A stretch of DNA of 63,978 nucleotides. Origin: an uncultured Lachnospiraceae bacterium. GTDB lineage: Bacteria; Bacillota; Clostridia; Lachnospirales; Lachnospiraceae. The notes under the pieces are model-generated. The model did not search any database. It was not told the origin of the DNA and was given only the letters and a program-made list of their open reading frames with translations. Each line of letters begins with the position of its first letter. Position 1 is the stretch's first letter. The position numbers and the translations under genes were made by a program. The stretch lies in assembly GCA_947567595.1 (NCBI GenBank), contig CANOMQ010000021.1:1-63978 (forward strand), written 5' to 3'. Of this stretch, positions 5,428 through 42,462 are shown in pieces.

Positions 5428-5455
5428 TTGAAAATTGGATAAATTAGGTTATAAT
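5428..5455 (+). promoter_or_regulatory. sigma-A-like promoter P2 upstream of mbl
   Basis: TTGAAA (5428-5433), a 16-base spacer and TATAAT (5450-5455). It is the promoter nearest to mbl, leaving a leader of about 140 nt. Confidence 0.6.
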
Positions 5456-5600
5456 GGCTTAGTTAGCAATTCATCATGGATAATGGCTATACTATATTAC
5501 TGACTAAGATGATTAGATTATCCTTATATCATGAAGGATTAATTTTGAATAAAGTACCTGAATTTATCAAGTTTGATTTAGAAAGAAAGGGGCAGCAGCC

Positions 5601-6596: not shown

Positions 6597-6655
6597 TCCT
6601 GCGAAATGAGGTACACACTCTAAGCTGACACGATTTGGGAATTTAGGAGGAGAGT

Positions 6656-8274: not shown

Positions 8275-8325
8275 TGACAATACGCTTGTAATCTAGGCTT
8301 TTTGTAGGAATGGAGGAATTTGGAT

Positions 8326-8712
8326 ATGGATATTGGCGGAGTAGGTTCCGTATATGCGGACTATATGGCATCGCAGGTGTCTTCGGGAAAGGCGGACGCA
8401 CTTGAGAATAAGCTGACAAACAAGGCGGCTACGGCAACGGAAGAAGAGCTGATGGACGCGTGCAAGGAATTTGAATCTTATTTCATGGAGCAGGTATTCA
8501 ATTCCATGATAGAGACGACAAAGGTATTTTCCGATGACGACGAGAACGGATATGCATCAAAGATGGTGGATTATTTTAAGGATTATGCTGTTCAGGAATT
8601 GTGCGATCAGGTGACGAGCGGTAACGGTATCGGGATTGCCAATACGCTTTATGAACAGATGAAACGCAATTATGGTATTGGAGCGAATATGATTGCTGCG
8701 GAAGATGTGTAG
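8326..8712 (+). CDS. flgJ: rod-binding protein, FlgJ N-terminal domain only
   Basis: This 128-residue protein matches the rod-binding domain of FlgJ (helical core with ACKEFESYFMEQVFNSMIETT and ELCDQVTSGNGIGIANTLYEQM), thought to cap or scaffold rod assembly. The peptidoglycan hydrolase domain present in enterobacterial FlgJ is missing, which is common in Firmicutes. I place the start at ATG 8326, 9 bases after GGAGG; an in-frame TTG at 8320 is too close to the SD. It is the last gene of the mbl-flhO-flhP unit and is followed by a terminator. Confidence 0.85.
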   Translation: MDIGGVGSVYADYMASQVSSGKADALENKLTNKAATATEEELMDACKEFESYFMEQVFNSMIETTKVFSDDDENGYASKMVDYFKDYAVQELCDQVTSGNGIGIANTLYEQMKRNYGIGANMIAAEDV

Positions 8713-8735
8713 ACAAAAATGTGCATAATCAATAC

Positions 8736-8764
8736 AGCCGAACCCGAAAACGGGCTCGGCTTTT
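8736..8764 (+). terminator. intrinsic terminator after flgJ
   Basis: An 11-base stem, AGCCGAACCCG/CGGGCTCGGCT with one mismatch, closes an AAAA loop and runs into TTTT. It separates the flagellar unit from recD2. Confidence 0.85.
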
Positions 8765-8816
8765 GTGCGTACGATGCAAAGGAAGCAAACGATATCGCAG
8801 GACAGGAGGAACACGC

Positions 8817-11090: not shown

Positions 11091-11788
11091 GGAATCTTGT
11101 GGATTTGCTGTTTCCGCTGCGCTGTGCGGTCTGTGACGACATTGTGCCGGCGGGCGAGGGGCGTGTGTGTAGGGAATGTCGTAGAAAAATACGCTACATT
11201 TGCGAGCCGCGGTGCATGAAATGCGGAAGACAGCTTATGGACGGGGCGAAGGCTTTTTGCGCTGCGTGTGAGCGGACGCCGCATGTATTTGACAAAGGCA
11301 TTGCGTTGTATGATTATCAGAGCATGAAAAAGAGTATTTACCGCTTTAAATATAAGAAGCGCTGCGAATACGCGGCATTTTACGCGCAGGATTTGTACGA
11401 CCATTTAAAGTCCGAAATTTCCGCGATGAATGCAGACGCGATTATCCCGATACCGCTGCACAAATCAAGGCAAAAAAGCCGCGGTTATAATCAGGCACAG
11501 CTTCTTGCGGAGCAGTTATCCAAGCTTACGGGGGTTCCTCTGGAAAAAAATTTAGTCAGAAGAATTCGCAAAACAGTGCCTCAGAAGCAATTAGATGCAC
11601 ATGGAAGGCAAAATAATTTGAAAAAGGCTTTCAATATTAAGCCAAATGTTGTAAAATTAAATAAAACTATCCTTATTGATGATATCTACACGACGGGTAG
11701 TACGATTGACGCCGTGGCGCGGGAATTAAAACGCCGTGGCGTGGGTACTGTTTATTTTATCACCCTGTGTATCGGAGAGGGCTTTTGA
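11060..11788 (+). CDS. comF: ComF family protein (zinc-ribbon phosphoribosyltransferase fold)
   Basis: The N-terminal half carries Cys pairs (CAVC, CREC, CMKC, CAAC), as in ComFC. The C-terminal half has the PRPP-binding motif ILIDDIYTTGST of type I phosphoribosyltransferases. ComFC is needed for natural transformation in Bacillus; many homologues sit in non-competent bacteria, so the role here is open. The gene begins inside the last codons of recD2. yvyF follows, reproducing the Bacillus comFC-yvyF neighbourhood without comFA/comFB. Confidence 0.9.
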   Translation: MRDVFIGRGLRNLVDLLFPLRCAVCDDIVPAGEGRVCRECRRKIRYICEPRCMKCGRQLMDGAKAFCAACERTPHVFDKGIALYDYQSMKKSIYRFKYKKRCEYAAFYAQDLYDHLKSEISAMNADAIIPIPLHKSRQKSRGYNQAQLLAEQLSKLTGVPLEKNLVRRIRKTVPQKQLDAHGRQNNLKKAFNIKPNVVKLNKTILIDDIYTTGSTIDAVARELKRRGVGTVYFITLCIGEGF

Positions 11789-11815
11789 AATTGATGTAAA
11801 ATGGAGGGAACCAGA

Positions 11816-22850: not shown

Positions 22851-24254
22851 GTGAAACGGATTGAGGCGGCAAAGCGTACGATTATTTTGCAGATGTCTTT
22901 GGTCGGGCTTGTATTTCAGACGGTGCTGTATATTTATGTGTGGCACCGGGTTTACAACGACATCATGCAGAGCAATATGTGGAGAAGCTTCCACAGAAAG
23001 GGCTTCTGGCTTTTGGCAGCAGTCTATTTTTTGCTGCTTTTATTTTTTACGGCTACATATGGAGGGTTAAAGATTGGCTATTTAAAGCCGATGGACGTGT
23101 TTTTCTCACAGGTTATTTCATTGTTTTTTACGAATGTGGTATCGTACTTTCAGATATCCCTGCTTTCGTTGAAGCTGGTAACACCATATCCGTTGATTTT
23201 GATGATGTTAGGCGAGATTGTGGTGGCGGGCATGTGGACGTTTATCAGCCATCGGCTATACAAGCAGTTTTTTCCGCCAAAGCAGTTGTTATTTATCAGC
23301 GGCGAGCGTCCGGTTGAGGATATTTTGAAAAAGTTTGAGACGCGCAAGGATAAATATACGATTTTAAAGTGTGTTTACGAGAATGAGGGGAAGAGCGTCC
23401 TTGAAAAGGAAATCATGAGCGGATATGACGGCGTGGTGCTTTGGGACATGAATACGGCGCTTCGCAATAAGCTTTTGAAATTCTGCTACAGCAGGGGTGT
23501 ACGGGTGTATATTATGCCAAAAATCCCCGACATCATGGTGAAGGGCGCTGACCAAATCCACCTGTTTGATACGCCGATACTGCTGATTCGGGATTATGCG
23601 ATGACGGTGGAGCAGCGTTTGGTCAAGCGCATGATTGACATTGTGTGCGCGCTGATTTTGCTGGTGCTTGCGTCGCCGTTTATGGTGATAACCGCAGTCG
23701 CAATCAAGCTGTATGACGGCGGCCCGGTGCTGTATAAGCAGGTGCGCTGCACGCGGGACATGCGGGAGTTTCTGATTTTGAAATTTCGCAGTATGCGAAG
23801 TGACGCGGAAAAGGACGGCGTGGCAAGGCTTGCGTCAAAGAATGACAGCCGCATTACGCCAGTCGGACGGCTTATTAGAAAAACGCGGATTGATGAGCTG
23901 CCGCAGTTGTTTAATATTTTAAAGGGCGACATGTCCTTTATCGGGCCAAGACCCGAGCGCCCGGAGATTATCCGGCAGTATCAGGAGGAAATGCCGGAGT
24001 TTACGTTTCGGACAAAGGTGAAGTCAGGGCTTGCGGGGTATGCGCAGGTGTATGGGAAATATAACACGACGCCTTATGACAAGCTGAAACTTGATTTGTT
24101 TTATATTGAAAACTACAGTGTATGGCTTGATTTAAAGCTAATGCTTCTGACCTTGAAGGTTTTGTTCCAGCCTGACAGTACGGAAGGCGTGGAGGGAAAT
24201 CAGACGACGGCAATGAGAGGGATTGCAAATCAGATTAAGGATGAGGAAGGATGA
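22851..24254 (+). CDS. polyprenyl-phosphate sugar-1-phosphate transferase (initiating enzyme)
   Basis: This enzyme puts the first sugar phosphate onto undecaprenyl phosphate, starting the repeat unit. In 467 residues, about four N-terminal membrane helices and a CoA-binding-like middle are followed from about 255 by the bacterial sugar transferase domain: a membrane helix after KRMIDIVCALILLV, KFRSMRSDAEKDG, RKTRIDELPQLFNIL, FIGPRPERPE and a GLAGYAQVYG end. The WbaP/WcaJ-type layout is clear; which sugar is used is not. The start is GTG 22851 with GGAGG upstream. The stop overlaps the next start (ATGA). Confidence 0.93.
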   Translation: MKRIEAAKRTIILQMSLVGLVFQTVLYIYVWHRVYNDIMQSNMWRSFHRKGFWLLAAVYFLLLLFFTATYGGLKIGYLKPMDVFFSQVISLFFTNVVSYFQISLLSLKLVTPYPLILMMLGEIVVAGMWTFISHRLYKQFFPPKQLLFISGERPVEDILKKFETRKDKYTILKCVYENEGKSVLEKEIMSGYDGVVLWDMNTALRNKLLKFCYSRGVRVYIMPKIPDIMVKGADQIHLFDTPILLIRDYAMTVEQRLVKRMIDIVCALILLVLASPFMVITAVAIKLYDGGPVLYKQVRCTRDMREFLILKFRSMRSDAEKDGVARLASKNDSRITPVGRLIRKTRIDELPQLFNILKGDMSFIGPRPERPEIIRQYQEEMPEFTFRTKVKSGLAGYAQVYGKYNTTPYDKLKLDLFYIENYSVWLDLKLMLLTLKVLFQPDSTEGVEGNQTTAMRGIANQIKDEEG

Positions 24255-25279: not shown

Positions 25280-26058
25280 AACTACAGGTATTGGTGTCGT
25301 CTGTCGGTCAGGATACTGCCATGCTGGCAGAGCGCATGAATTTGGAGAGCGACGCCATTATTATCAATCAGACAGATTACTTTGATTATCACGAATACAG
25401 ACATAAAAACAAGAAAATACAGTGCTTTGAGCTTGCAGAGCGCGGTGTGGGTCTAAGCCGTAACAATGCGCTTATGCGGGCGGAGGGGGATATTGTCCTC
25501 TTTTCGGATGAGGACATTGTGTATGACGATGGTTACGAGAAGAAGGTGCTGGACGCGTTTGAGGCGCATCCGGAGGCAGATTTTCTGCTGTTTAACATGC
25601 GGGTGGGCGCATCGCGGGCAACGTATCATACGAAGCAGTTTCACCGCGTTCATATTTGGAATGCGGGGCGTTATCCGACGTATTCTTTTGCCGTGCGGCG
25701 GGAGAAGCTTCACGCGGTGAATGTGACGTTTTCCTTATTGTTTGGAGGCGGCGCGAAGTACAGCAACGGTGAGGACAGCCTTTTTTTGAAGGACTGCCTG
25801 AAATATGGCTTCAAGGTGTATGCGGTTCCGATTGAGCTTGGCGCGGAGCGCGAGCGGGACTCGACATGGTTTCGGGGATATACGGACAAATTTTTTATTG
25901 ACAGGGGCGTGCTGTACCACTTTTTATATGGTGCGCTGGCGTACCCTATGGCGGTACGGTTTATTGCGGCACACGGGAAGGTCATGTGTGTGGAAATCCC
26001 GAAGAAAAACGCGCTTGCGCTGATGAAAAAGGGTATCCGGTCAGTGGAGGGGCTTTAA
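25276..26058 (+). CDS. family 2-like glycosyltransferase (GT-A fold)
   Basis: A 260-residue protein starting KLQVLVSSVGQD, with ERGVGLSRNNALMRAEGDIVLF-type substrate loop and metal motif FSDEDIVYDD near 85, plus NGEDSLFLKDCLKYG near 165, which resembles the catalytic ED region of GT2 enzymes. It is a soluble sugar transferase of unknown donor. The start is GTG 25276, whose GTGA overlaps the previous stop; the frame is open upstream but only inside the previous gene. Confidence 0.78.
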   Translation: MKLQVLVSSVGQDTAMLAERMNLESDAIIINQTDYFDYHEYRHKNKKIQCFELAERGVGLSRNNALMRAEGDIVLFSDEDIVYDDGYEKKVLDAFEAHPEADFLLFNMRVGASRATYHTKQFHRVHIWNAGRYPTYSFAVRREKLHAVNVTFSLLFGGGAKYSNGEDSLFLKDCLKYGFKVYAVPIELGAERERDSTWFRGYTDKFFIDRGVLYHFLYGALAYPMAVRFIAAHGKVMCVEIPKKNALALMKKGIRSVEGL

Positions 26059-26060
26059 CG

Positions 26061-27194
26061 ATGGGCAGGGCAGTCTCCGTTCTATTTTATCTGTTTTTGG
26101 CTTTTATAACATATGTTATGGCTGCAAATGTCATGCCAGTCACCCAGCCGGTGGGAACAGACGCGCATGAAAGAAGAAAAGCGCTCAACCGGGTGTATAT
26201 CGGGGGGATTTTTGCAATCCTGTTTGTGGTGTCGGCGTTGCGCTTTGACATTGGAAATGACTACAGGCAGTATACGCTTACGGCGCATGAGGCATACGTA
26301 GGTGGCTATGTGGTGACCGAGGCGGGCTTTAATGCTTTGGTGCGGCTGGTCTATACGCTGTTTGACGGGGAATATTATGAGCTTGTGTTTGCCTTGTTTG
26401 CGTTTGTGACATTGGCGCTCTTTCTGCGTGCGTTTGCGCGGGACAGTGTAAGCTTTTCGCAGAGCTTTTTTCTGTTTATGACGCTTGGGCTTTATTTTCA
26501 GACCTTTAATACCGTGCGGTATTATTTCGCGCTTTCCGTGGCGCTGTGTTCCATGCGCTATATCCTTGAAAAAGATTATATCCGCTTTGTTTTTTGGATT
26601 GGCTTTGCCGCGCTGTTCCATAAATCGGTGCTTTTGGTCATTCCGGTTTATTTTGCGGCGACGTTTGCGTGGAACCGATGGGTTTATGGCTTGGGGCTTG
26701 CCGCGGGGGCAGTGTGCTTTGTGTGCAAAAGTCTTTTGCTAAAGCTTGCGCTGGTGCTTTACCCGTCTTACAAAAATACGATTTACCTTGAGGGCGGAAC
26801 GAGCCTTTTTAGTGTTGTCAGGATTGCGGCAGTGCTTTTGTTATATTTATGGTTTCTGCGCTATATGGGGAGCACATTTCGGGCGCGGGAGGATTACCGG
26901 AAAATCCGGTTTTATGGACAGTTGAATTTTCTTGCGTTTCTTGCGGCGACATTTTTTTCCTTTTTGCCGGTGGTGACGAGGATCGTGTATTATTTTAGCG
27001 TATCGCAGCTTTTGATGATACCGCTTATGGTCAAAAATATAGAAGATGATATGGTTAAGATGAAGCTCAAGCTTCTTGTGACCGTTGTATGCATTGTCTA
27101 TTTCGCGTTCTTTTTGCTAAATGCACATCAGGCGGGGGTAGGGCTTTTGCCATATCGGACATGGCTGTTTTGCGAGCGGTATGTTTATGAATGA
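26061..27194 (+). CDS. EpsG/Wzy-type polysaccharide polymerase
   Basis: The 377 residues contain about ten hydrophobic segments, and the region RFDIGNDYRQYTLTAHEAY after the second helix is the conserved D-Y-x-x-Y loop of the EpsG family, which polymerises lipid-linked repeat units on the outer face of the membrane. The pattern FRYYFA-like (VRYYFALSVALCSMRYI) further supports this. ATG 26061 lies 2 bases after the previous stop, and the end overlaps the next gene by 4 bases. Confidence 0.82.
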   Translation: MGRAVSVLFYLFLAFITYVMAANVMPVTQPVGTDAHERRKALNRVYIGGIFAILFVVSALRFDIGNDYRQYTLTAHEAYVGGYVVTEAGFNALVRLVYTLFDGEYYELVFALFAFVTLALFLRAFARDSVSFSQSFFLFMTLGLYFQTFNTVRYYFALSVALCSMRYILEKDYIRFVFWIGFAALFHKSVLLVIPVYFAATFAWNRWVYGLGLAAGAVCFVCKSLLLKLALVLYPSYKNTIYLEGGTSLFSVVRIAAVLLLYLWFLRYMGSTFRAREDYRKIRFYGQLNFLAFLAATFFSFLPVVTRIVYYFSVSQLLMIPLMVKNIEDDMVKMKLKLLVTVVCIVYFAFFLLNAHQAGVGLLPYRTWLFCERYVYE

Positions 27195-29344: not shown

Positions 29345-30536
29345 TTATATCAACCATCACCAAATTCCGATGGCAAATACGCTGTATGAGAAGCTGGGGG
29401 CGGATTTTGCCTTTATTCAGACGCAGCCGATGGAGGAGGAACGCGTCAGGATGGGGTGGGGGAGCGAGGTTTCGGATATTCCCTATCTTAGGCTTTATTA
29501 TGAGGACGGGGCGAATTGTGCGGATTTGATTATGGAGAGTGATATTGTTGTTTTTGGCGGCGTTGAGGACGAGCGTTATATCAAGCCGAGATTAAATGCG
29601 GGTAAAATCGTCATTCGCGCGAGTGAGCGGCTTTACCGTGAGGGGCAGTGGAAGTCCATTTCGCCAAGGGGCAGGAAAAAGAAGTACGAAGACCACACGC
29701 AGTATGCCAATGCGCCGGTTTATCTTTTGTGCCACGGGGCGTATGTGGCGTCGGATTTTGCGATTGTCCATGCGTATCCGGGTAAGAAGTTTATGTGGGG
29801 GTATTTTCCGGCGGTCAATGTGTATGATTTGGACGAGCTGTTTTTGCGGAAGCGGCGTGAGGGGGGTGAAGGAAAAACGTACGTTCGGATTTTGTGGGCG
29901 GGACGGTTTTTGAAGCTAAAGCACCCTGAGTATGCGATAAAAGTGGCGGCGTATTTAAAAAAGAAGGGGATTGCGTTTCGGCTTGATATGGTGGGCGGCG
30001 GTGATTTGGAGAAGCCGTTAAAGCGCATGACGGCGCGCTTGGGGCTTTCGGATGTGGTTTCATTTCATGGATTTTTGCCGCCGCAGGACGTGAGGCGATA
30101 TATGGAGGAAGCGGATATTTTTCTGTTTACCAGCAATTATTTGGAGGGCTGGGGGGCGGTTTTGAACGAGGCGATGAACAGTGCGTGCGCGGTGGTGGCA
30201 GGTCACGGGATTGGGGCGGTGCCGTTTCTTTTACGGCATGGCGAGAACGGGCTTATCTATCGGACGGGGTGCTTTCGGGAATTTGCGGCGTATGTTTTGC
30301 GGCTGTGCAAGGACGAAGCGCTTCGCAGGCGGCTTGGCACGAATGCGTATCGGACGATGATAAAGGAGTGGAACCCGCAGGAGGCAGCCAAGCGGCTTTT
30401 GCGGTTTAGCGAGGGGCTTTTAAAAGGGGAGGTCAATCCCGAGGCGGCGGGACCGCTTAGCATTGCACCTGTTATTCACCCGGGAGCGGGCTATCGTTAT
30501 GCGCATAACAGGTCAAATAAACAAAACAACAGGTGA
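29322..30536 (+). CDS. family 4 glycosyltransferase (GT-B fold)
   Basis: A 404-residue GT-B enzyme: KLTIVSNYINHHQIP at the start, the linker RILWAGRFLKLKHPEYAIK near 190, and the E-x7-E motif EGWGAVLNE near 275. The C-terminal 20 residues (HPGAGYRYAHNRSNKQNNR-like) are polar and probably disordered. GGAG 8 bases before the ATG sets the start inside the preceding gene. Donor sugar unknown. Confidence 0.9.
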   Translation: MKLTIVSNYINHHQIPMANTLYEKLGADFAFIQTQPMEEERVRMGWGSEVSDIPYLRLYYEDGANCADLIMESDIVVFGGVEDERYIKPRLNAGKIVIRASERLYREGQWKSISPRGRKKKYEDHTQYANAPVYLLCHGAYVASDFAIVHAYPGKKFMWGYFPAVNVYDLDELFLRKRREGGEGKTYVRILWAGRFLKLKHPEYAIKVAAYLKKKGIAFRLDMVGGGDLEKPLKRMTARLGLSDVVSFHGFLPPQDVRRYMEEADIFLFTSNYLEGWGAVLNEAMNSACAVVAGHGIGAVPFLLRHGENGLIYRTGCFREFAAYVLRLCKDEALRRRLGTNAYRTMIKEWNPQEAAKRLLRFSEGLLKGEVNPEAAGPLSIAPVIHPGAGYRYAHNRSNKQNNR

Positions 30537-30541
30537 TATTT

Positions 30542-31660
30542 ATGGAGAAAACAAAGAGCAGGATTTACGTCTGCCATACTTTTTATCATGTATATGTGTC
30601 AATTTTAAAGGAAATGAAGCTGCAAAGAAAAACAGTGCCGTCAGCGTACCGCAAGGCGGATATTGCGTTAAGCTCAATATCGACAAATTTTGAAAATCTG
30701 GGCGAGCGGCTTAGGCGTACGGGGATTTTTGACACGGTTTACGCGCTCGATGAAAAACGGGAGGACTTTTTCCCGCAGCTTGCAAAATACCGTGCCAATT
30801 ATAATAATGTGCTGCGTCATCTGATGAACAGAATGATTTTCACAAAGAAGCTTGCAAAGTGCGAAATTCCATATATGGCGCAGATTGATTTTAAGGCGTA
30901 TGAGGACGTTTACGTGTTTTGCGACAGCGACCCGATTGGATATTATCTGAATTACAAGCATATTTATTATCATGCGGTGGAGGACGGGCTGGACTGCCTG
31001 AAAAATCTGGACGACGCGTTTGTGGCGAACAGCGCGCACTTTAAGCTAAAGACGTGGCTTTCGCGCAGGAACGTGATTTTTGTGATGAACGGGTGGGGGA
31101 AATACTGCCTTGACATGGAGATTAACGACCGCAGCGTTGTGCCGACGGACTGCCCGCGCTTTGTGGAGGTGCCAAGGAAGCCCTTGGAAAATGCCTTGAC
31201 GGCGGAGCAGAAAAAGCTGATGATACAGGCATTTATTGAAGATGCTGACGCGCTCATGGAGCAGCTAAAGCCTTCCCGCATAGGGGAGGAGTTTGCGTGT
31301 TTCCTGACGGAGCCGCACCCGGTAGACGAGGAGGCGCGCAAGAAGGTCTGTTTGGACGTGCTTGCGCAGTATTGCAAAGGGTACCGCGTGCTGATTAAGC
31401 CGCACCCACGGGATTTGATTGACTATGCAGCGCTTTGCCCCGACGCGGTGGTGCTTCGGGGGCGGTTTCCGGTGGAGGTCTTGAACTTTTTTGAGGGACT
31501 CAAAATAAAGCGTGCTGTATCAATCGTTACGACGGCGATGAACAGCATGGATTTTGTGGAGGAAAAGATTAATCTTGGCGCGTCGTTTTGGGACGCGTAT
31601 GAGGAACCGGAAAAACATGCATATAATAAGAAGGCAGGGCTGAACCTTGCGAACGGTTAG
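30542..31660 (+). CDS. GT52-like glycosyltransferase (sialyltransferase/TagF-like GT-B)
   Basis: The 372 residues begin RIYVCHTFYHVYVSILK, the N-terminal pattern of GT52 and polysialyltransferase-type enzymes. They continue with YVFCDSDPIGYYLN and HAVEDGLDC (an E/D-D-G acceptor motif), and a donor site LIKPHPRDLIDYA near 285. GT52 members transfer sialic-acid-type or glucose residues; with a pseudaminic acid operon close by, this is my best candidate for the nonulosonate transferase. ATG 30542 follows AGGTGA. The stop is UAG, and 23 protein-like codons follow in frame (31661-31732), so the C-terminus may be truncated. Confidence 0.68.
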   Translation: MEKTKSRIYVCHTFYHVYVSILKEMKLQRKTVPSAYRKADIALSSISTNFENLGERLRRTGIFDTVYALDEKREDFFPQLAKYRANYNNVLRHLMNRMIFTKKLAKCEIPYMAQIDFKAYEDVYVFCDSDPIGYYLNYKHIYYHAVEDGLDCLKNLDDAFVANSAHFKLKTWLSRRNVIFVMNGWGKYCLDMEINDRSVVPTDCPRFVEVPRKPLENALTAEQKKLMIQAFIEDADALMEQLKPSRIGEEFACFLTEPHPVDEEARKKVCLDVLAQYCKGYRVLIKPHPRDLIDYAALCPDAVVLRGRFPVEVLNFFEGLKIKRAVSIVTTAMNSMDFVEEKINLGASFWDAYEEPEKHAYNKKAGLNLANG

Positions 31661-34651: not shown

Positions 34652-35647
34652 ATGTTATTGGACGACAAAACAATTTTGATTACAGGCGGCACAGGTTCAT
34701 TCGGGCATTGCTTTACAAGGTACGTGCTGGAGCATTACCATCCGAAGAAGATTATTATTTATTCGAGAGATGAGTTTAAGCAGTGGATGATGGCGAATGA
34801 GTTTACGGAGTATAAGGACAAGCTGCGCTTTTTTATCGGCGATGTGCGCGACTATGAGCGTATGAAACGTGCGTTCGAGGGCGTTGACTATGTCATTCAT
34901 GCGGCGGCTCTAAAGCAGGTGCCCGCGTGCGAGTACAACCCGAATGAGGCGATTAAGACGAATGTCAACGGCGCACAGAACGTGATTGACGCGGCGCTCA
35001 ATATGGGTATCCAAAAAGTGGTTGCGCTTTCGACGGACAAGGCGGTCAATCCTGTCAATTTGTACGGCGGTACAAAGCTGGTATCGGATAAGCTGTTCAT
35101 CGCGGCGAATGCGTACTGCGGAAACAAGGATTTGAATTTTTCGATTGTGCGTTATGGAAATGTGGCGGGCAGCCGCGGCTCCGTGATTCCGTTTTTCCAG
35201 CAGTTGATTGACGAGGGCGCAAAGGAGCTGCCGATTACGGACTATCGTATGACGCGTTTCTGGATTAGCCTGACGGAGGGCGTGGAGCTTGTGATTAAGG
35301 CGCTTGAGGAAGCGAAGGGCGGCGAGACGTTTATCAGCAAAATCCCGTCGTTTAAGGTGACAGACCTTGCGGAGGCGATGTGTCCCGGTATCAAGACGAT
35401 AGAAACGGGAATCCGTCCCGGTGAAAAGCTGCACGAGGTGATGGTGACGGCTGAGGATTCGATGACGACGTACGAGTATGACAAGCATTTTATCATTTAT
35501 CCGCAGATGTTCTGGCAGGAGTCAAAGCGGCCAAATCCAAGCGGCAAGAAGGTTGCGGACGGGTTTTATTATTCGTCGGGGAACAATACGGAGTGGCTTT
35601 CGGTGGAGCAAATCCGAGAGCTTTTAAAGACAGATCTGCATGAGTAG
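34652..35647 (+). CDS. pseB: UDP-N-acetylglucosamine 4,6-dehydratase (inverting), PseB
   Basis: First step of CMP-pseudaminic acid synthesis: removes water from UDP-GlcNAc and inverts C5. The 331 residues have the NADP loop ITGGTGSFGHCFTRYVL, AALKQVPACEYNP, LSTDKAVNPVNLYGGTK (catalytic Y-x3-K changed context) and the PseB-typical RYGNVAGSRGSVIPFF. GGAGG precedes the ATG. pseC follows, giving the canonical PseB-PseC pair. Confidence 0.95.
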   Translation: MLLDDKTILITGGTGSFGHCFTRYVLEHYHPKKIIIYSRDEFKQWMMANEFTEYKDKLRFFIGDVRDYERMKRAFEGVDYVIHAAALKQVPACEYNPNEAIKTNVNGAQNVIDAALNMGIQKVVALSTDKAVNPVNLYGGTKLVSDKLFIAANAYCGNKDLNFSIVRYGNVAGSRGSVIPFFQQLIDEGAKELPITDYRMTRFWISLTEGVELVIKALEEAKGGETFISKIPSFKVTDLAEAMCPGIKTIETGIRPGEKLHEVMVTAEDSMTTYEYDKHFIIYPQMFWQESKRPNPSGKKVADGFYYSSGNNTEWLSVEQIRELLKTDLHE

Positions 35648-35648
35648 A

Positions 35649-35696
35649 GGGTGAAAAGTTTCACCCCGAAAAACGCCCAAAACAGGCGCTTTTCAC
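35649..35696 (+). promoter_or_regulatory. mutually exclusive hairpins between pseB and pseC
   Basis: GGGTGAAA (35649-35656) can pair with TTTCACCC (35659-35666). Alternatively GTGAAAAG (35651-35658) pairs perfectly with CTTTTCAC (35689-35696), enclosing a small CGCC/GGCG stem. Both cannot form together, as in attenuators or RNA-processing sites. Function unknown; the pairing is seen directly. Confidence 0.5.
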
Positions 35697-35727
35697 ATTA
35701 GATAATACAGAAAGGACAGAATGTGAT

Positions 35728-36921
35728 ATGGAAAAACCGGCGATTGCAGGCGGGACACCTGTCAGGGATACGAAACTGTTTTACGGACATCAGTATATTG
35801 ACGACGCGGACATTGCGGCGGTGGAGGCGGTGCTTCGGAGTGATTTTCTGACCTGCGGTCCCAAAATTACGGAATTGGAGCAAAGGCTCTGTGCGCTGAC
35901 GGGCGCGAAGTACGCGGTGGTATGCAGCAATGGCACGGCGGCGCTGCATATCGCGGCGCTTGCGGCAGGCGTGGGAGAGGACGACGAGCTGATTACGACG
36001 CCGATTACGTTTGCGGCGTCGGCAAACTGTGCGCTCTACTGCGGCGCGAAGCCTGTGTTTGCGGATATTAACCCAAGAACGTACAACATCAGGCCGGCTT
36101 GTGTCGCGGAAAAAATCACGGAACGGACAAAGGCGGTGGTTGCGGTTGACTTTACCGGTCAGGCTGTGGAGCTTGCGCCTTTATTGGAATTGTGCCGAAA
36201 GAAGGGAATTGCCCTGATTGAGGACGGTGCGCATTCGATTGGCACGAAATATAACGGGATGCCTGTCGGCAGCATTGCGGACATGACAACGTTCAGCTTT
36301 CATCCGGTGAAAACGGTAACAGGCGGTGAGGGCGGCGCGGTGCTGACAAACCGTGCCGATTTGTATGAAAAGCTGCTGCTGTACCGCTCGCACGGGATTA
36401 CGAAGGACGCGCGCTTTTTTGAGCGGGAAAGTCATGGGGCGTGGTATCATGAGCAGATTGATTTGGGCTATAATTACCGCATTACGGATATGCAGTGTGC
36501 GCTGATTATAAGTCAGCTTGACAAATTAGAGCGTTTTGCAAAGCGGCGCAGGGAGATTGTGGAGCGTTATAATGAGGCATTCCGAAAAATGCCGGAGCTG
36601 TTTGTGCAGGAGGAAATCGCGGAGTCGGATACGGTGCGGCATCTGTATATCCTGCGGATTGTGCCGGAGCGGCTGACCATTGACCGCAAGGGCTTTTTTG
36701 AGGCGCTCGGGGCGGAGAATATCGCTTGCAATGTGCATTACATTCCGGTGTACTGGCACCCGTATTATGGGAAGCTTGGGTACGAAAAGGGGCTTTGCCC
36801 GAACGCGGAGAAGCTTTACAATGAAATGCTGAGCCTGCCGCTTTATTATTCGCTGACGGATAAGGACGTGGACGATGTGATTGCGGCGGTGGAGAAGATT
36901 ATTGCTTATTATAGAAAATAG
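35728..36921 (+). CDS. pseC: UDP-4-amino-4,6-dideoxy-N-acetyl-beta-L-altrosamine transaminase, PseC
   Basis: PseC is a PLP-dependent aminotransferase (DegT/DnrJ/EryC1 family) that adds the 4-amino group to the PseB product from glutamate. In 397 residues: the PLP-contact CSNGTAALHIAALA near 72, DGAHSIGTKYNG near 168, and the Schiff-base lysine in FSFHPVKTVTGGEGGA near 195. Normal length. It stands between two hairpin regions, 80 bases after pseB. Confidence 0.95.
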   Translation: MEKPAIAGGTPVRDTKLFYGHQYIDDADIAAVEAVLRSDFLTCGPKITELEQRLCALTGAKYAVVCSNGTAALHIAALAAGVGEDDELITTPITFAASANCALYCGAKPVFADINPRTYNIRPACVAEKITERTKAVVAVDFTGQAVELAPLLELCRKKGIALIEDGAHSIGTKYNGMPVGSIADMTTFSFHPVKTVTGGEGGAVLTNRADLYEKLLLYRSHGITKDARFFERESHGAWYHEQIDLGYNYRITDMQCALIISQLDKLERFAKRRREIVERYNEAFRKMPELFVQEEIAESDTVRHLYILRIVPERLTIDRKGFFEALGAENIACNVHYIPVYWHPYYGKLGYEKGLCPNAEKLYNEMLSLPLYYSLTDKDVDDVIAAVEKIIAYYRK

Positions 36922-37003
36922 ATTGAAAAATCACAGACTTTCAATCGGAATATTTGTGCAGAGACATAAATTTGTTGGATTTGGAAAGTGTGGAGGATTA
37001 TGA

Positions 37004-37043
37004 AGTACAAGGGCAATGGCAGAACGCAGTCCTTGTACTTTTG
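37004..37043 (+). terminator. attenuator-like hairpin overlapping a 20-codon ORF, pseC-pseF gap
   Basis: A 10-bp perfect stem, AAGTACAAGG (37004-37013) with CCTTGTACTT (37032-37041), runs into TTTT. The stem lies inside a 20-codon frame (ATG 37001 to TGA 37063, MKYKGNGRTQSLYFWAYRKK) that has its own GGAGG SD at 36993-36997. Translation of that frame would melt the stem, so a leader-peptide attenuator is possible. The 36922-37090 gap holds nothing else that I can name. Confidence 0.5.
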
Positions 37044-37090
37044 GGCTTATCGGAAGAAGTGAAATAAATGGAATTACCGGAGGGTTACAG

Positions 37091-37789
37091 ATGAAAAGCG
37101 TGGCGATTATAACAGCGCGGGGCGGCAGTAAGCGCATACCGCGCAAGAATATCAAGCCGTTTTTGGGCAGACCGATTTTGGAGTATAGCATTGAGGCGGC
37201 GCTTGCGGCAGATATGTTTCATGAGGTCATGGTCTCGACGGACGACGAGGAGATTGCGAATGTGGCAAAAAAGGCGGGGGCAAAGGTGCCGTTTCTGCGC
37301 AGTGAAAAGACGGCAAACGACTTTGCGACGACGGCGGACGTGATTGCGGAGGTGCTTGACTCCTACGAGCGGATTGGCACAAGCTTCGGGCGGGTGTGCT
37401 GCATTTACCCGACGGCGCCGTTTGTGACGGCAAACGCGATTAAGACGGCGATGATGATACTGGAGCAGGAGCAGGCGGACAGCGTTATTCCGGTGGTAAA
37501 GTTCTCGTTTCCGCCGCAGCGCGGTGTACTCATTCAGGACGGCAGGATTGTGCCGAAGTGGAAGGAATGTATGAACATGCGTTCGCAGGACTTGGAGCCG
37601 CTTTACCATGACTGCGGGCAGTTTTATTGTCTGAATGTGGAGAGCTTTCGCAGGCAGAAGGCGATTTGGATGGAGAACGTGGTGCCGTTTGTGCAGGACG
37701 AGCTGTTTGTGCAGGATATTGACACGCCGGAAGACTGGAAGATGGCGGAGATGAAATATCGGCTGTTATATATGGACGAAAAGAGGTAA
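37091..37789 (+). CDS. pseF: pseudaminic acid cytidylyltransferase, PseF
   Basis: PseF activates pseudaminic acid with CTP to the CMP-sugar donor and releases pyrophosphate. The 232 residues have the CMP-sialate synthetase N-terminus IITARGGSKRIPRKNIKPFLGRP-like loop, STDDEEIANVAKKAG, and the YPTAPF motif near 105. ATG 37091 lies after GGAGGG; the frame is open earlier but without SD and would cross the hairpin. pseI follows after 8 bases. Confidence 0.93.
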   Translation: MKSVAIITARGGSKRIPRKNIKPFLGRPILEYSIEAALAADMFHEVMVSTDDEEIANVAKKAGAKVPFLRSEKTANDFATTADVIAEVLDSYERIGTSFGRVCCIYPTAPFVTANAIKTAMMILEQEQADSVIPVVKFSFPPQRGVLIQDGRIVPKWKECMNMRSQDLEPLYHDCGQFYCLNVESFRRQKAIWMENVVPFVQDELFVQDIDTPEDWKMAEMKYRLLYMDEKR

Positions 37790-37797
37790 AACAGGGT

Positions 37798-38847
37798 ATG
37801 GGTAATACAATTCAGGTGAACGGCAGGACGGTCGGGGACGGCGCGCCTGCATATATTATCGCGGAAATGTCGGCAAACCATGCAGGAAGTATGGAGCGCG
37901 CCCTCGAAATGATTTCGGTGGCGAAGGAGGCGGGGGCGGACTGTGTGAAAATCCAGACGTACACGCCGGACACGATGACGATTGACTGCCATAATGAATA
38001 TTTCAATATCGAAAAGGGGACTTGGGAGGGGGAAAACCTCTATTCCCTGTATCAGAAGGCATATACGCCGTGGGAGTGGCAGGATAAGCTGCGCGACGAG
38101 GCGGCGCGTGTGGGGATTGATTTTCTCTCTACGCCGTTTGACAATACTTCGGTGGATTTTTTGGAGAAGCTTGGGCTTTCATTTTATAAAATCGCGTCGT
38201 TTGAGATGGTGGATATTCCGCTGTTGGAGTACATTGCGTCAAAGAACAAACCGATTATTATGTCAACCGGTATGGCGACATTGCAAGAGATTGAGGAGGC
38301 GGTGGAAGCCATATATGCGACCGGAAACAGACAGCTTGCATTGATGAAGTGTTCCAGTGCATATCCGGCAAAGAGCGAGGAAATGAATTTGCGGACAATC
38401 TGCGATTTGAAAAAGCGGTTTGCAATTCCAATCGGGCTTTCCGACCATTCGATGGGAAGCTTTAGCGCGGCGACGGCGGTTGCGATGGGGGCGAATATCA
38501 TTGAAAAGCATTTCTGTGTCAGCCGTGCGATTGAAAATCCCGATTCGTCGTTTTCGATGGAGCCGGACGAGTTTCGGGAAATGGTGGCGCAGGTGCGTGA
38601 GGTTGAGAAGGCAATGGGGACAGTTGCGTATGGCGTGTCGAAGCAGGAGGAGACGAATGCGTGTTTTCGGCGTTCGTTGTTTGTGGTGGAGGATATCAAG
38701 GCGGGCGAGGCGTTTACGCCGGAAAACGTCAGAAGTATCCGTCCGGCGTATGGACTGGCGCCTAAGCATTACAAGGAGATTTTGGGGAAACATGCGGCGC
38801 GCGATTTGACGCGCGGAACGCCGTTGGCGTTTGCGGATATAAAATAG
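37798..38847 (+). CDS. pseI: pseudaminic acid synthase, PseI
   Basis: PseI condenses the 6-deoxy-AltdiNAc hexose with phosphoenolpyruvate. The 349 residues show the NeuB-type TIM barrel (YIIAEMSANHAGS, VKIQTYTPDTMT, FLSTPFDNTSVDFLE, GLSDHSMGS) and a C-terminal SAF (antifreeze-like) domain from about 290. SANHAGS and the FDNTSVDFLE segment favour PseI over NeuB or LegI. An uncommon point: the start codon directly follows a GGGT stretch with AAGAGG as SD. Confidence 0.94.
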   Translation: MGNTIQVNGRTVGDGAPAYIIAEMSANHAGSMERALEMISVAKEAGADCVKIQTYTPDTMTIDCHNEYFNIEKGTWEGENLYSLYQKAYTPWEWQDKLRDEAARVGIDFLSTPFDNTSVDFLEKLGLSFYKIASFEMVDIPLLEYIASKNKPIIMSTGMATLQEIEEAVEAIYATGNRQLALMKCSSAYPAKSEEMNLRTICDLKKRFAIPIGLSDHSMGSFSAATAVAMGANIIEKHFCVSRAIENPDSSFSMEPDEFREMVAQVREVEKAMGTVAYGVSKQEETNACFRRSLFVVEDIKAGEAFTPENVRSIRPAYGLAPKHYKEILGKHAARDLTRGTPLAFADIK

Positions 38848-38866
38848 GAAGAGTTAGGTTTGGAAT

Positions 38867-39319
38867 ATGTGCTTATCTTTGCGAAAAGTAACGGCGGAAG
38901 ACGTCGATTTGCTCTATGAATGGGCGAATGACAGGACAGTGCGGCAAAACGCGTTTCATACGGAGCCGATTTTGTATGAAAATCATGTGAAATGGTTTGC
39001 AAAAACGCTGGCGGACAAGACGGTGTACCACTATATTTTATGCGCAGGGGATACGCCTGTCGGGCAAATCCGGTTCAATGTCACGGACGGTGAGGCGTTG
39101 ATTGATTATAGTATCGGTGCGCCGTATCGTGGGTGCGGATATGGGAAAAAACTACTTGCACTAGCGAAGAAGCAGGTTGTTTTGGATAAAATAGCGGGAG
39201 TTGTGAAATTGGTCGGTCAAGTGAAATATGAAAACCATGCGTCGGCACGGGCATTTGAAGCATGCGGGTTTGCGAGGAAGGAACTGGACGGGTATATCCA
39301 GTATGAATATACTTTATAA
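38867..39319 (+). CDS. pseH: PseH-like N-acetyltransferase (GNAT)
   Basis: PseH acetylates the 4-amino group made by PseC. This 150-residue GNAT protein has the acetyl-CoA pyrophosphate loop GAPYRGCGYGKKLLALA and the N-terminal RKVTAEDVDLLYEWANDRTVR pattern common in pathway-associated acetyltransferases. Catalytic residues cannot be assigned by eye; position inside the pse operon makes PseH the best reading. Because a formyltransferase follows, the two may act on different amino groups or one may replace the other. Confidence 0.78.
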   Translation: MCLSLRKVTAEDVDLLYEWANDRTVRQNAFHTEPILYENHVKWFAKTLADKTVYHYILCAGDTPVGQIRFNVTDGEALIDYSIGAPYRGCGYGKKLLALAKKQVVLDKIAGVVKLVGQVKYENHASARAFEACGFARKELDGYIQYEYTL

Positions 39320-39372
39320 AATGAGTATTCTTTATAAATAACAGATGATTGGCGGCGGAAAGGAGTGGGCGA

Positions 39373-40059
39373 ATGCGAATAATTATTGCGACAATCAAGT
39401 CATGGAACATTGCGCGCGCGCAGGCATTGCAGAAACAGTATCAAGGGGTTCATGAGATTGCTCTATACACGGAAAAAGAAGAATTGACAGTAGATAACGT
39501 GTGTGATTTTAATCCCGACTACATTTTACTGCCCCACTGGTCGTATTTTATTCCCGATGAGATTACCCAAAATTGGGAGTGCGTGGTGTTCCACATGACG
39601 GATTTGCCATACGGGCGCGGCGGCAGTCCCTTGCAAAATCTGATTGTGCGCGGTCATAAGGAGACAAAGGTATCGGCAATCAGGGTGACTGCAACGTTTG
39701 ACGCCGGACCAGTGTATATGAAACGTCCGTTGTCACTTGCGGGAAGTGCGCAGGAGATTTTTATACGGTGCGCGGATTTGATTTTCGGGGAAATGATACC
39801 AAGGCTTCTGACGGAAAAAATCACCCCAACGCCGCAGGAAGGCGAGCCGGTTATTTTCAAGCGCAGAAAGCCGGAGGATAGCGAAATAACATCTGATATG
39901 GAATTGGATACAATCTATGACTATATCCGAATGCTGGACGCGGAGGGGTATCCGCGCGCGTATTTGGAGTTTGGCGGTTATCGGCTGGCGTTTGAGGACG
40001 CGGATTTGGCAGAGGACGGGCAGACGCTTTCGGCGCGTGTTGTTTTTCAAAAAAGATAG
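39373..40059 (+). CDS. sugar N-formyltransferase-like protein
   Basis: A 228-residue member of the formyltransferase fold (methionyl-tRNA, ArnA and sugar N-formyltransferases). The signature HMTDLPYGRGGSP near 83 corresponds to the family loop HxxxLPxxRGxxP, and the downstream Asp is in TFDAGPVY. The asparagine that normally precedes the His by two (N-x-H) is a Val here, which is odd. Too short for a tRNA enzyme and embedded in the pse operon, it probably transfers formyl from N10-formyl-THF to an amino sugar. ATG 39373 with AAAGGAG upstream is the start. A 14-bp palindrome follows the stop. Confidence 0.75.
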   Translation: MRIIIATIKSWNIARAQALQKQYQGVHEIALYTEKEELTVDNVCDFNPDYILLPHWSYFIPDEITQNWECVVFHMTDLPYGRGGSPLQNLIVRGHKETKVSAIRVTATFDAGPVYMKRPLSLAGSAQEIFIRCADLIFGEMIPRLLTEKITPTPQEGEPVIFKRRKPEDSEITSDMELDTIYDYIRMLDAEGYPRAYLEFGGYRLAFEDADLAEDGQTLSARVVFQKR

Positions 40060-40060
40060 T

Positions 40061-40074
40061 GTGAAAATTTTCAC
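40061..40074. repeat. perfect 14-bp palindrome GTGAAAATTTTCAC
   Basis: Sits immediately after the formyltransferase stop. Its half-sites repeat the GTGAAAA/TTTCAC elements of the hairpin at 35649-35696, also just after a stop codon in the same operon. May be a short hairpin or a protein-binding site. Confidence 0.4.
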
Positions 40075-40140
40075 ATAAGAAAGAAGTCTGTATTGCAAAT
40101 ATTGTATAGAGATACAAATTGGCAGGAATGGGGGAAGGAA

Positions 40141-40830
40141 ATGAAAACGGTATTAATCGTAGCGGCGCACCCGGACGATGAAATTCTTGGCGTCGGTGCT
40201 ACGGCGGCAAGGCATGTCTCGTGCGGGGACGCGGTGTATGCGTTTATTTTAGGAGAAGGACAGACCTCGCGCGGTGCGCACAGGGAGGACACGGGAAAAG
40301 AGGTTGTGGACGCGCTTCATCAGAACACGTTGGAGAGCGCGAAGGCAATCGGATTTCGGGACGTGTTTTTCGCGGATTTTCCCGACAACCGCTTTGACGA
40401 AGTGGACTTGCTGGACATTGTGAAGGCGGTGGAGGAGAAAATCCGGGAGCTGAAGCCGCAGATTGTGTATACACATTATAGCGGCGATTTAAATGTGGAC
40501 CACCAGTATACGGCGCGCGCGGTGCTGACGGCGACAAGACCGATTGGGGATTACTGCGTGGAGGAGCTTTATGCGTTTGAAACGCTTTCCTCGTCGGAAT
40601 GGAATTTTGATTACAGCGCACAGCCTGCGTTTTGCCCGAATGTGTTTGTGGACATTTCAAAATATTATGCACAGAAGGAAAAAGCAATGCAATGCTATGT
40701 GTCGGAGCTTTGCGCGTTTCCGCACCCGAGGAGCCTTGCGGGTATGGACGTGCTGTCAAGAACGCGTGGCATGGAGGCGGGAATGGAGCGGGCGGAGGCA
40801 TTCATGCTGCTTCGCAAATCTGTAAAATAA
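40141..40830 (+). CDS. PIG-L family N-deacetylase
   Basis: The 229-residue zinc-dependent deacetylase has AAHPDDEILGVGATAARH at the N-terminus, providing metal ligands His and Asp-Asp, and HYSGDLNVDHQYT near 120 with further ligand His residues. Family members remove acetyl groups from GlcNAc-type sugars. Within the pse operon, right after a formyltransferase, it could unmask an amino group for re-acylation. The start is ATG 40141 with GGGAAGGA upstream. The substrate is inferred, not seen. Confidence 0.85.
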   Translation: MKTVLIVAAHPDDEILGVGATAARHVSCGDAVYAFILGEGQTSRGAHREDTGKEVVDALHQNTLESAKAIGFRDVFFADFPDNRFDEVDLLDIVKAVEEKIRELKPQIVYTHYSGDLNVDHQYTARAVLTATRPIGDYCVEELYAFETLSSSEWNFDYSAQPAFCPNVFVDISKYYAQKEKAMQCYVSELCAFPHPRSLAGMDVLSRTRGMEAGMERAEAFMLLRKSVK

Positions 40831-40881
40831 CAGGCGAAATGAATTGTTATGTAAATATAAAAACATTGGAGGAAACAGGAA

Positions 40882-41961
40882 ATGTTTTATATTCGCGCCG
40901 ACGGCAATACGCAGATTGGAATGGGGCATATCATGCGCTGTCTTTCGATTGCGGAGGCGGCTGCCGATTTGGGGGAGGCTTGTAAGCCTGTCTTTCTCGT
41001 GGCGGACGAGGCGTGCCGTAGTATGATTGCGGAGCGGGGCTTTCGCGTGATTGTGCTGCATACGGATTACAGGGATATGATGAGCGAGCTTCCACTGCTT
41101 GAAAACATGCTGGTGTGGGAGCGCGACTTACTACTTGTGGACAGCTATCAGGCGGACACGGCGTATTTTGCGGCGGTTTCCAAGGTTGCCGTCACGGTCT
41201 GCCTTGAGGATATGGGTGAGCCGTATCCGGTTGATATGCTGATTAATTACAACCTTTATGCGCCAAAGCTTGCGGGGCGGTATCAGATCAATGGAAAGCC
41301 GCTTGACACGCTTTTGGGTGCGTCGTTTGTACCGCTTAGAAGCTTGTTTCAGACAGATAACGCGTACACGGTGAGAGATAGAGTGATGGATGTTATGATT
41401 ACGACAGGCGGCAGTGACCCTCATTTTGCGGCAGGGGTGTTTCTTGGGGCATTTCTTGCGGCGGAGGATACCTTTTGCTGCGGGCATGATAAAAACCCGA
41501 TTACATGGCACGTTGTGAGTGGACCGTTTAACGCGTTTGCAAAGGATTTGAAGGGACAGTTTGGCGGGCGGGACAATGTTGTGATTTATGAAGGCTTAAA
41601 GGATTTAAAGGCATTGATGAAACGCTGTGACGTGGTGCTGACGGCGACGGGGAGCACGGTTTATGAGATTTGCGCGCTTGGCGTGCCGATGATTGCGTTT
41701 TATTTTGCAGAAAACCAAAGGCAGGGCGCGCAGGAGTTAGCGGAGCTTACGGAGATTGTGAATGCGGGGTGCTTTTGTGCGGACAAGGACGCGGTGACAA
41801 AACAGGCAACGGAGGCGTTGCGGCGGTGCGTCCATGATAAGGAATACCGTGCGTTATTATACAGGCAGGAGCGTCGGCTGGTTGACGCAAAGGGCGCGGG
41901 AAGGATTGCGAGCAGGATTTTTCAGTTGCAATGGGAACGGTATCATGCGGAATTGCTTTAA
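40882..41961 (+). CDS. pseG: UDP-2,4-diacetamido-2,4,6-trideoxy-beta-L-altropyranose hydrolase, PseG
   Basis: PseG cleaves UDP from the diacetylated sugar before condensation by PseI. It is a MurG-like GT-B hydrolase of 359 residues with the catalytic-His motif GMGHIMRCLSIAEA near 15, TTGGSDPH near 173, and the nucleotide-binding TATGSTVYEICALGVPMIAF near 255. This completes the pathway, in the gene order B, C, F, I, H, G. The stop codon overlaps the first of the AATGGAAC repeats. Confidence 0.93.
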   Translation: MFYIRADGNTQIGMGHIMRCLSIAEAAADLGEACKPVFLVADEACRSMIAERGFRVIVLHTDYRDMMSELPLLENMLVWERDLLLVDSYQADTAYFAAVSKVAVTVCLEDMGEPYPVDMLINYNLYAPKLAGRYQINGKPLDTLLGASFVPLRSLFQTDNAYTVRDRVMDVMITTGGSDPHFAAGVFLGAFLAAEDTFCCGHDKNPITWHVVSGPFNAFAKDLKGQFGGRDNVVIYEGLKDLKALMKRCDVVLTATGSTVYEICALGVPMIAFYFAENQRQGAQELAELTEIVNAGCFCADKDAVTKQATEALRRCVHDKEYRALLYRQERRLVDAKGAGRIASRIFQLQWERYHAELL

Positions 41962-42117: not shown

Positions 42118-42462
42118 ATGAGAAATGATTATCCGGGTATAATTGGCAAAATCGTGCATGGCAAAATTGACCGACCACTTGGAAGCCATCACCCACGCCA
42201 CCCAGAGATGGTTTATCCAATTAACTATGGCTATGTTGAAAGTGTTTTTGCGGAAGATGGTGCGGAGCAGGATATTTATCTGTTTGGAGTCAATATTCCT
42301 GTAGAAAAATTTGAAGGGCGTGTTATAGCAGTATACCGCAGATTTGATGATATAGAAGATAAATGGATCGTCTCATCAAGTGATAAAGATTTTTCAGATG
42401 AGGAAATCCTGAGACAGATACAATTTCAGGAGCAGTATTTTCATGGAGCATTGCTACGATAA
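42118..42462 (+). CDS. small inorganic pyrophosphatase-like protein
   Basis: The 114 residues resemble the short Firmicute version of family I pyrophosphatase: VHGKIDRPLGSHHPRHPEMVYPINYGYVE, an acidic EDGAEQDIYLFGVN loop, and DDIEDKWIVSS. Family I enzymes are usually about 170 or more residues, so this is a shortened form, and activity is uncertain. Its DNA is AT-richer than its neighbours and degenerate repeats lie on both sides, suggesting an inserted cassette. PseF releases pyrophosphate, but a pathway link is only a guess. Confidence 0.72.
   Translation: MRNDYPGIIGKIVHGKIDRPLGSHHPRHPEMVYPINYGYVESVFAEDGAEQDIYLFGVNIPVEKFEGRVIAVYRRFDDIEDKWIVSSSDKDFSDEEILRQIQFQEQYFHGALLR

Follow-up and report, generated by a model that had tools for sequence, protein, structure and literature searches.

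A linked deacetylase and formyltransferase in a Lachnospiraceae operon point to N5-formylated pseudaminic acid

In bacteria, surface glycans end in nonulosonic acids, the N-acyl pattern of which is recognised by antibodies, lectins and phages; to our knowledge, the genes that set this pattern are mostly unassigned. Here we examine a pseudaminic acid (Pse) operon at positions 34652-41961 of a 63,978-nucleotide stretch of DNA from an uncultured Lachnospiraceae bacterium (the whole stretch, contig C21 in a genome of 4.16 Mb, is referred to as the window). All six steps of the canonical cytidine monophosphate (CMP)-Pse pathway known from Helicobacter and Campylobacter (PseB-C-H-G-I-F) have candidates in the window, to which the operon adds a short N-formyltransferase (FT) and a PIG-L/LmbE deacetylase between pseH and pseG. 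We conclude that the operon probably makes CMP-5-N-formyl-7-N-acetyl-pseudaminic acid, a predicted product that differs from the canonical one in being formylated on N5. The evidence lies in the gene set, the linkage of FT and PIG-L across phyla, gene fusions, catalytic residues and a residue of the Pse synthase that follows FT.

The operon comprises eight genes, all read from the plus strand and arranged head to tail in the order pseB-pseC-pseF-pseI-pseH-FT-PIG-L-pseG. Five of the six Pse enzymes scored over their curated NCBIfam cut-offs: PseB, an inverting uridine diphosphate (UDP)-N-acetylglucosamine (GlcNAc) 4,6-dehydratase (34652..35647; TIGR03589, 533.4 bits, cut-off 407.75), the 4-aminotransferase PseC (35728..36921; TIGR03588, 463.5 bits, cut-off 423.5), the CMP-Pse synthetase PseF (37091..37789; TIGR03584, 285.6 bits, cut-off 205.7), the NeuB-family Pse synthase PseI (37798..38847; TIGR03586, 482.3 bits, cut-off 340.25) and the UDP-sugar hydrolase PseG (40882..41961; TIGR03590, 155.8 bits, cut-off 153.55, exceeded by 2.3 bits only). 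PseI also matched the pseudaminic acid synthase of PDB entry 8h2c with an E-value of 1e-94. The sixth gene, the pseH candidate (38867..39319), codes for a GNAT-family N-acetyltransferase for the C4 amine, the future N7; it matched Acetyltransf_3 at 60.9 bits and sits at the right place in the operon. FT (39373..40059) and PIG-L (40141..40830; PF02585, 92.8 bits, cut-off 28.2) complete the set. For three genes the likely start lies inside the mechanically called open reading frame (ORF): ATG 37091 for pseF (ORF from 37016, the profile match beginning at ORF residue 29), ATG 39373 for FT (ORF from 39349, AAGGAG upstream) and ATG 40141 for PIG-L (ORF from 40093, GGGGGAAGGA upstream). NCBIfam and Pfam profiles revealed no second formyltransferase among nine proteins of the window operon. 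The gene order thus bears out a preliminary description of the window, which had placed all six canonical genes, and a formyltransferase and PIG-L deacetylase between pseH and pseG, at this site; its pseH remains a candidate that scored under the cut-off of its model (see below).

Based on this gene set, the reactions, the nitrogen, the formyl donor and the stage of action can be inferred as follows. PseB and PseC would convert UDP-GlcNAc into UDP-4-amino-4,6-dideoxy-AltNAc, whose 4-amine, the future N7, would be acetylated by PseH. PIG-L would then hydrolyse the 2-N-acetyl group remaining from GlcNAc, and FT would formylate the freed 2-amine (the future N5), presumably with 10-formyl-tetrahydrofolate as donor. 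PseG would remove UDP, and the substrate of PIG-L and FT could be either the UDP-sugar or the free hexose after PseG. Lastly, PseI would condense the sugar with phosphoenolpyruvate and PseF would activate the product with CMP. Comparative genomics gives good support to the suggestion in the preliminary description that deacetylation and formylation together yield an N-formyl Pse, 14 Da lighter than the diacetyl form.

The linkage of FT and PIG-L was examined in loci centred on FT. A scan of the genome collection gave 165 FT relatives, the best 80 loci of which were kept and, with two viral and four fetched loci, made up the 86 FT loci scored. Linkage was counted in the 62 of these that have 4 kb or more of sequence to either side, with PIG-L counted within 4.5 kb; L071 and L120 turned out to be one contig, which leaves 61 distinct loci. 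PIG-L was present in 62/62, within 150 bp of FT in 49, and a NeuB-type synthase was found in 60/62. Outside the genus of the window organism the counts were 39/39 for PIG-L and 38/39 for the synthase (38 distinct loci). Going by record titles, the FT loci from outside the genus belong to 11 named phyla and 10 of them could be placed in none; many come from metagenome bins, so that single assignments may be wrong. Six of the 86 scored loci showed no PIG-L, and in five of them (L054, L056, L061, L069 and L098) the contig ends less than 200 bases from FT; the sixth, L080, is taken up below. Within the genus, FT was found in 32 of 35 genomes in addition to the window's own, and the order PseI-PseH-FT-PIG-L-PseG repeats in most of the FT loci; because of this recurrence the arrangement is not due to chance. 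FT was absent from the 24 other genomes of the order that were searched, and was present in 5 of 398 genomes drawn from the phylum, the window's own included. Despite this contrast within the order, the idea that FT is genus-specific was rejected, since it is spread over many phyla. The closest FT relatives among the named records listed were from Lachnospiraceae, and FT is carried by records of Lachnospiraceae bacterium COE1 and A4. A scan of plasmids for FT gave one record. On the plasmid of [Synechococcus] sp. NIES-970, candidate pseB, C, F, G and H genes are followed by FT (annotated as methionyl-tRNA formyltransferase), LmbE and NeuB; the set fits into 8.5 kb and has two further ORFs in between. 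The synthase gene lies between FT and PIG-L in several loci. Judged by its genomic distribution, the FT/PIG-L pair is a recurrent cassette widespread in bacteria and not a local insertion.

Two side observations concern the occurrence of FT. Contigs classed as viral (L255-L270, L112 and L113) carry FT, 14 of the 18 with PIG-L in the stretch retrieved and some with NeuB synthases. A scan of annotated phages for FT returned nothing. At L122 (9105-9790, genome G261) FT is split into two short ORFs with stops between them, next to an intact-looking PIG-L and synthase, which suggests a decayed FT or an assembly error.

The same association was found when loci were chosen by synthase, regardless of FT. 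This control comprised 71 Pse-type synthase loci (27 Bacillota, 15 Bacteroidota and 29 Proteobacteria). The Bacillota part consisted of the best-scoring Pse-type loci and left out G193 C1, G187 and the second G297 locus; L123 and L124 were added because PIG-L adjoins the synthase. Also excluded were two centre genomes, G456 and G457, and six weaker rows from Proteobacteria. FT and PIG-L occurred together in 7 of the 71 loci, FT alone in 0, PIG-L alone in 4 and neither in 60 (Fisher p 2.5e-7; 3.3e-8 without L123 and L124). FT was found in 0/15 Bacteroidota loci, a group which is by itself uninformative. A hand-read set of 42 Bacillota synthase rows of at least 300 bits, the window included, had PIG-L within 10 kb in 7, and FT was present in 5 of these 7 vs 0 of the 35 others (p 2.5e-5; 1.5e-4 without the window). 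Where PIG-L stood without FT, other transferases were found nearby: a GNAT at L124 and L188 (both just over the Pfam cut-off), carbamoyltransferases at L193, and at L123 a methyltransferase together with a member of a second, different short formyltransferase family (FT2). One would expect this distribution if the role of PIG-L is to expose an amine that then receives a new group. At L193 one carbamoyltransferase gene lies on either side of the synthase/PIG-L pair (5433-7163 and 9179-10966), PIG-L following the synthase, which suggests that this locus makes a carbamoylated pseudaminic acid. NeuC-containing, legionaminic-like loci also have PIG-L, and a classical formyltransferase of about 300 residues was found at L129, L134, L135, L274 and L275.

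Continuous ORFs join PseH to FT at L047, L050, L072, L076 and L080, FT to PIG-L at L046, and PseH to PseI at L071 (the contig shared with L120) and L083. The PseH-FT joins would fit action on nucleotide-linked intermediates.

The question of which nitrogen is formylated was addressed through the enzymes that act on the other one. At a threshold of 50 bits, PseH or a PseG-PseH fusion was found in 48 of the 62 FT loci and FT2 in 12, so that 57/62 have one or the other; Aquimarina litoralis (L089) is an example of a strain with FT and FT2. Two proteobacterial loci, L230 and L234, carry FT2 between pseG and pseI (8201-8869 and 8273-8926, respectively) and no PIG-L; a Pfam scan found no GNAT among the 8 ORFs of L230 and the 10 of L234. 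At L234 a protein with hexapeptide repeats is encoded roughly 3.5 kb past pseI, and the operon holds, besides its intact pseI, another NeuB gene that is interrupted, its parts lying in two neighbouring ORFs (10727-11793). We regard L230 and L234 as candidate minimal loci for 7-N-formyl-Pse in which FT2 replaces PseH; the window operon, which has a PseH candidate and FT, does not follow this pattern. Since N7 is accounted for by PseH or FT2, and the C2 nitrogen arrives acetylated from UDP-GlcNAc, the comparative evidence favours the C2 nitrogen of the hexose, which becomes the C5 nitrogen of Pse, over 7-N as the site of formylation.

7-N-formyl forms of Pse occur in Pseudomonas, and the preliminary description had pointed to such a product. 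On that account PIG-L would strip the acetyl group that PseH had added to N4 and FT would formylate the same nitrogen. We judge this unlikely, even though 7-N-formyl-Pse is also a natural sugar of Pseudoalteromonas distincta KMM 638 (PMC3210612, as given in the accessible part of the text) and five loci encode a fusion of FT with PseH. PseH followed by PIG-L on one nitrogen would be futile, N7-formylation at L230 and L234 seems to need FT2 only, and FT stands beside FT2 in 12/62 loci. A residue of PseI moreover follows FT, and is Ile in three loci that have FT2 without FT, two of them closely related. Simple 7-N-formylation was likewise set aside, as the C4 amine has its own enzyme in most loci. 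For organisms that make 7-N-formyl Pse we would instead predict FT2 in place of PseH and no PIG-L, as at L230 and L234.

That residue emerged from a comparison of 143 synthases, thinned to 117 at 85% identity (the FT-linked ones from 79 to 55), to which the window row was then added. Residue 60 of PseI (TYTPDTM60T in the window) was Met in 56/56 FT-linked rows vs 21/62 other rows, the remainder having Ile or Leu, and was the top column (Fisher p 2.2e-16; next column 2.3e-7). Before thinning, 78 of the 79 FT-linked synthases had Met and one a gap. On a tree built without this column the FT label needs 23 changes. Twelve independent, well-supported pairs differ in FT; on average, Met accompanied FT in 9.0 of them and the opposite held for 0.0 (pair test p: median 0.004, range 0.001-0.016). 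Ile60 was found in the three loci with FT2 and no FT (L230, L234 and L123) and in three of the four with PIG-L and no FT (L123, L124 and L188). None of 15 loci with NeuC-associated, legionaminic-like synthases had Met60, including those with PIG-L and a classical formyltransferase; among the synthases compared, the signature is thus confined to those for Pse. No PseI position stood out as tracking FT2. In nmNeuB, specificity for C2 has been placed at position 132 and for C4-C6 at 70-85, and PseI residue 60 is not named in the part of that text available (PMC7371886). We propose that Met60 may adapt PseI to formyl, the smaller group, on N5 and, because residue 60 tracks FT, formylation would precede PseI.

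Alternatively, PIG-L and FT could come in at a late stage, with Pse, CMP-Pse or the completed glycan as substrate; the product would still be an N-formyl Pse. Gene order alone does not fix the stage, and the loci in which FT and PIG-L flank the synthase gene would suit such a scheme. We nevertheless hold late action to be improbable: a free 5-amino nonulosonate tends to cyclise, the tracking of FT by residue 60 makes most sense if PseI meets an already formylated sugar, and FT is fused to PseH, which acts ahead of PseG.

It is less likely still that PIG-L and FT modify a different sugar of the surrounding polysaccharide and are merely located in the Pse operon. The cluster does hold many other sugar genes, and locus L137 has PIG-L and a classical formyltransferase together with no NeuB detected. 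A NeuB synthase is, however, near FT in 60/62 loci of otherwise very different clusters, and both the FT-PseH fusions and the co-variation of PseI with FT tie the pair to Pse.

FT matched the profiles Formyl_trans_N (PF00551; 34.9 bits, cut-off 26.1) and Formyl_trans_C_2 (PF21553; 88.1 bits, cut-off 27). Its closest solved relative is PDB 1zgh (E 2.2e-82 over query residues 4-224), with ArnA and other Fmt entries far weaker. This entry, which we take to come from Clostridium thermocellum, belongs to the same short FT family and was deposited as a methionyl-tRNA formyltransferase, whereas the gene neighbourhoods of related proteins speak for an enzyme of nonulosonate metabolism; this suggests that the family has a function other than the one under which it is deposited and annotated. 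The possibility that FT is a stray Fmt paralogue was rejected, as it scored 36.6 bits against a cut-off of 201.5 for TIGR00460. Elsewhere in the same genome, on contig C28, a 313-aa open frame with a weak Fmt match (31.2 bits, 27%) may be the true Fmt. In 52 sequences of FT, His74, Asp110 and Asn89 are invariant and the block F73-I91 (FHMTDLPYGRGGSPLQNLI) is invariant or nearly so; the His and Asp stand 36 residues apart in 77 of 85 FT rows. PIG-L has the HxDD motif and distant His that form the metal site of LmbE/PIG-L enzymes (PMC4101496, accessible text), and these metal and base residues (H10, D12, D13 and H121) are invariant in 78/78 module members. Because these catalytic and metal residues are invariant or nearly so, both enzymes are under strong constraint. 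That the pair is inactive on Pse, or that FT is no formyltransferase, leaving ordinary Pse5Ac7Ac as the product, is accordingly very doubtful, whatever the naming of 1zgh solely as a tRNA enzyme and the departure of FT from the classical triad may offer in its favour.

Several points weigh against N5-formylation as we propose it. Classical formyltransferases have an Asn two residues before the catalytic His as part of their triad, and FT has Val72 there. The motif was matched by 84 of 85 FT rows, with V, I, C, A or L at this position, and by 8 of 14 FT2 rows, with V, so that no motif-matching row of either family has Asn; FT instead has the invariant Asn89, 15 residues past the His. The best NCBIfam model for the PseH candidate is TIGR03585, at 44.6 bits and under its cut-off of 93.1. 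PseH and FT2 are both present in 3/62 FT loci and both absent from 5/62 (4 and 3, respectively, at 35 bits). The PseH model, moreover, was built from FT loci and is insensitive: of the 71 control loci, just 24 gave a PseH hit, and neither PseH nor FT2 was found in 43/71, many of which had been PseG-PseH fusions in an earlier phmmer pass. At L080 the PseH-FT fusion runs directly into pseG with no PIG-L there, and the fusions as a whole stem from few lineages. As to PseI, the residue 60 column was picked post hoc, the tree was built quickly and has good support on 26 of its 115 inner branches, and the presence of Met60 in 21/62 rows without FT makes it permissive and not diagnostic. L230 and L234 fall in one clade, the seven non-FT rows of which all have Ile, so that they count as about one case. 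A hold-out set of synthases next to FT on viral contigs or the plasmid comprised 12 rows, nine of them distinct (L256 equals L257, and L263 equals L264); Met was found in 5/9 and Leu in 4/9, three of the latter with a shorter loop.

N-formylated nonulosonates have been described before in other settings. 5-N-formyl-legionaminic acid is found in Halorubrum sp. PV6 and the virus HRPV-1, and a formyltransferase gene has been proposed in the cluster (PMC6137143, accessible text), a situation that resembles the N5-formyl sugar and linked FT predicted here. The sugar there is legionaminic acid and the organism an archaeon, and a 953-bp reverse-transcription PCR product suggests a longer, classical formyltransferase; a deacetylase is not mentioned in the accessible text, nor is ORF 1052 (HrrPV6_1052) described there. 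Geobacillus flagellin glycosylation islands (type III, fmt2) are alike in combining a formyltransferase with Pse genes in a Firmicute, the form and function of formylation being left open (PMC5109656), and the accessible text has no mention of a deacetylase, PIG-L or LmbE. Most LmbE-like enzymes identified deacetylate GlcNAc moieties (PMC4101496, in the part available), which speaks for the GlcNAc-derived acetyl group as the target of PIG-L. PIG-L shares the HxDD motif and distant His with MshB, BshB and teicoplanin deacetylase; it scored far under the BshB cut-offs (64.7 vs 182.5 bits), and its predicted substrate differs, being a 2,4-diacetamido-trideoxy-altrose intermediate. In the literature searched, which lay largely outside subscription journals and was in part seen as extracts, no deacetylase-formyltransferase route has been assigned for Pse. 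The preliminary description saw novelty in a defined route for a Firmicute; a formyltransferase in a Firmicute Pse island has this Geobacillus precedent, and the cassette as such is not confined to Firmicutes, being spread by record title over 11 named phyla and present on the plasmid of a cyanobacterium.

Upstream of the operon, also on the plus strand, lie genes for an initiating sugar transferase (22851..24254; PF02397, 217.4 bits), an EpsG-type polymerase (25986..27194; PF14897, 155 bits) and a GT52-type glycosyltransferase, a candidate CMP-Pse transferase (30533..31660; PF07922, 50.9 bits; polysialyltransferase PF07388, 24.4 bits). The neighbours further include an RmlD-type reductase, several GT1 and GT2 glycosyltransferases and an ABC transporter, and a Pfam scan found no flagellar genes among 29 window ORFs. 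Because the operon is surrounded by these genes, its Pse most likely goes into an exported polysaccharide or exopolysaccharide, to which it would plausibly be transferred by the GT52 enzyme at 30533. Directly after pseG (42118-42462) lies a gene for a 114-aa inorganic-pyrophosphatase-like protein, slightly under the Pfam cut-off, which was the best match of no ORF in 113 loci compared. Two further NeuB-type synthase loci were found in the same genome, at C5:45723-46688 (L273) and C1:36501-37460 (L272). Both have NeuC and NeuA-type genes; L272 also has NeuD, and L273 has a classical 323-aa formyltransferase, with PIG-L matched nowhere in its 16 kb of retrieved sequence. The strain may thus make three different nonulosonates.

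More broadly, we put forward, tentatively and with somewhat less than even confidence, that PIG-L and an exchangeable transferase form a general N5-swapping cassette of Pse biosynthesis throughout bacteria. As parts of this single proposal, a formyl-, acyl-, carbamoyl- or methyltransferase would write a new group on the GlcNAc nitrogen freed by PIG-L; N7 would be set independently, such that FT with PseH gives Pse5Fo7Ac, FT2 alone Pse5Ac7Fo, and FT with FT2 a di-N-formyl product; and PseI would have adapted repeatedly, residue 60 tracking the group on N5. If this is true, many 'methionyl-tRNA formyltransferases' beside NeuB genes would be misnamed, and PseI residue 60 would be a candidate specificity residue. 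The N-acyl pattern of pseudaminic acid would become readable from the genome through a testable code, FT with PIG-L for N5-formyl and FT2 for N7-formyl, which predicts the existence of di-N-formyl pseudaminic acid.

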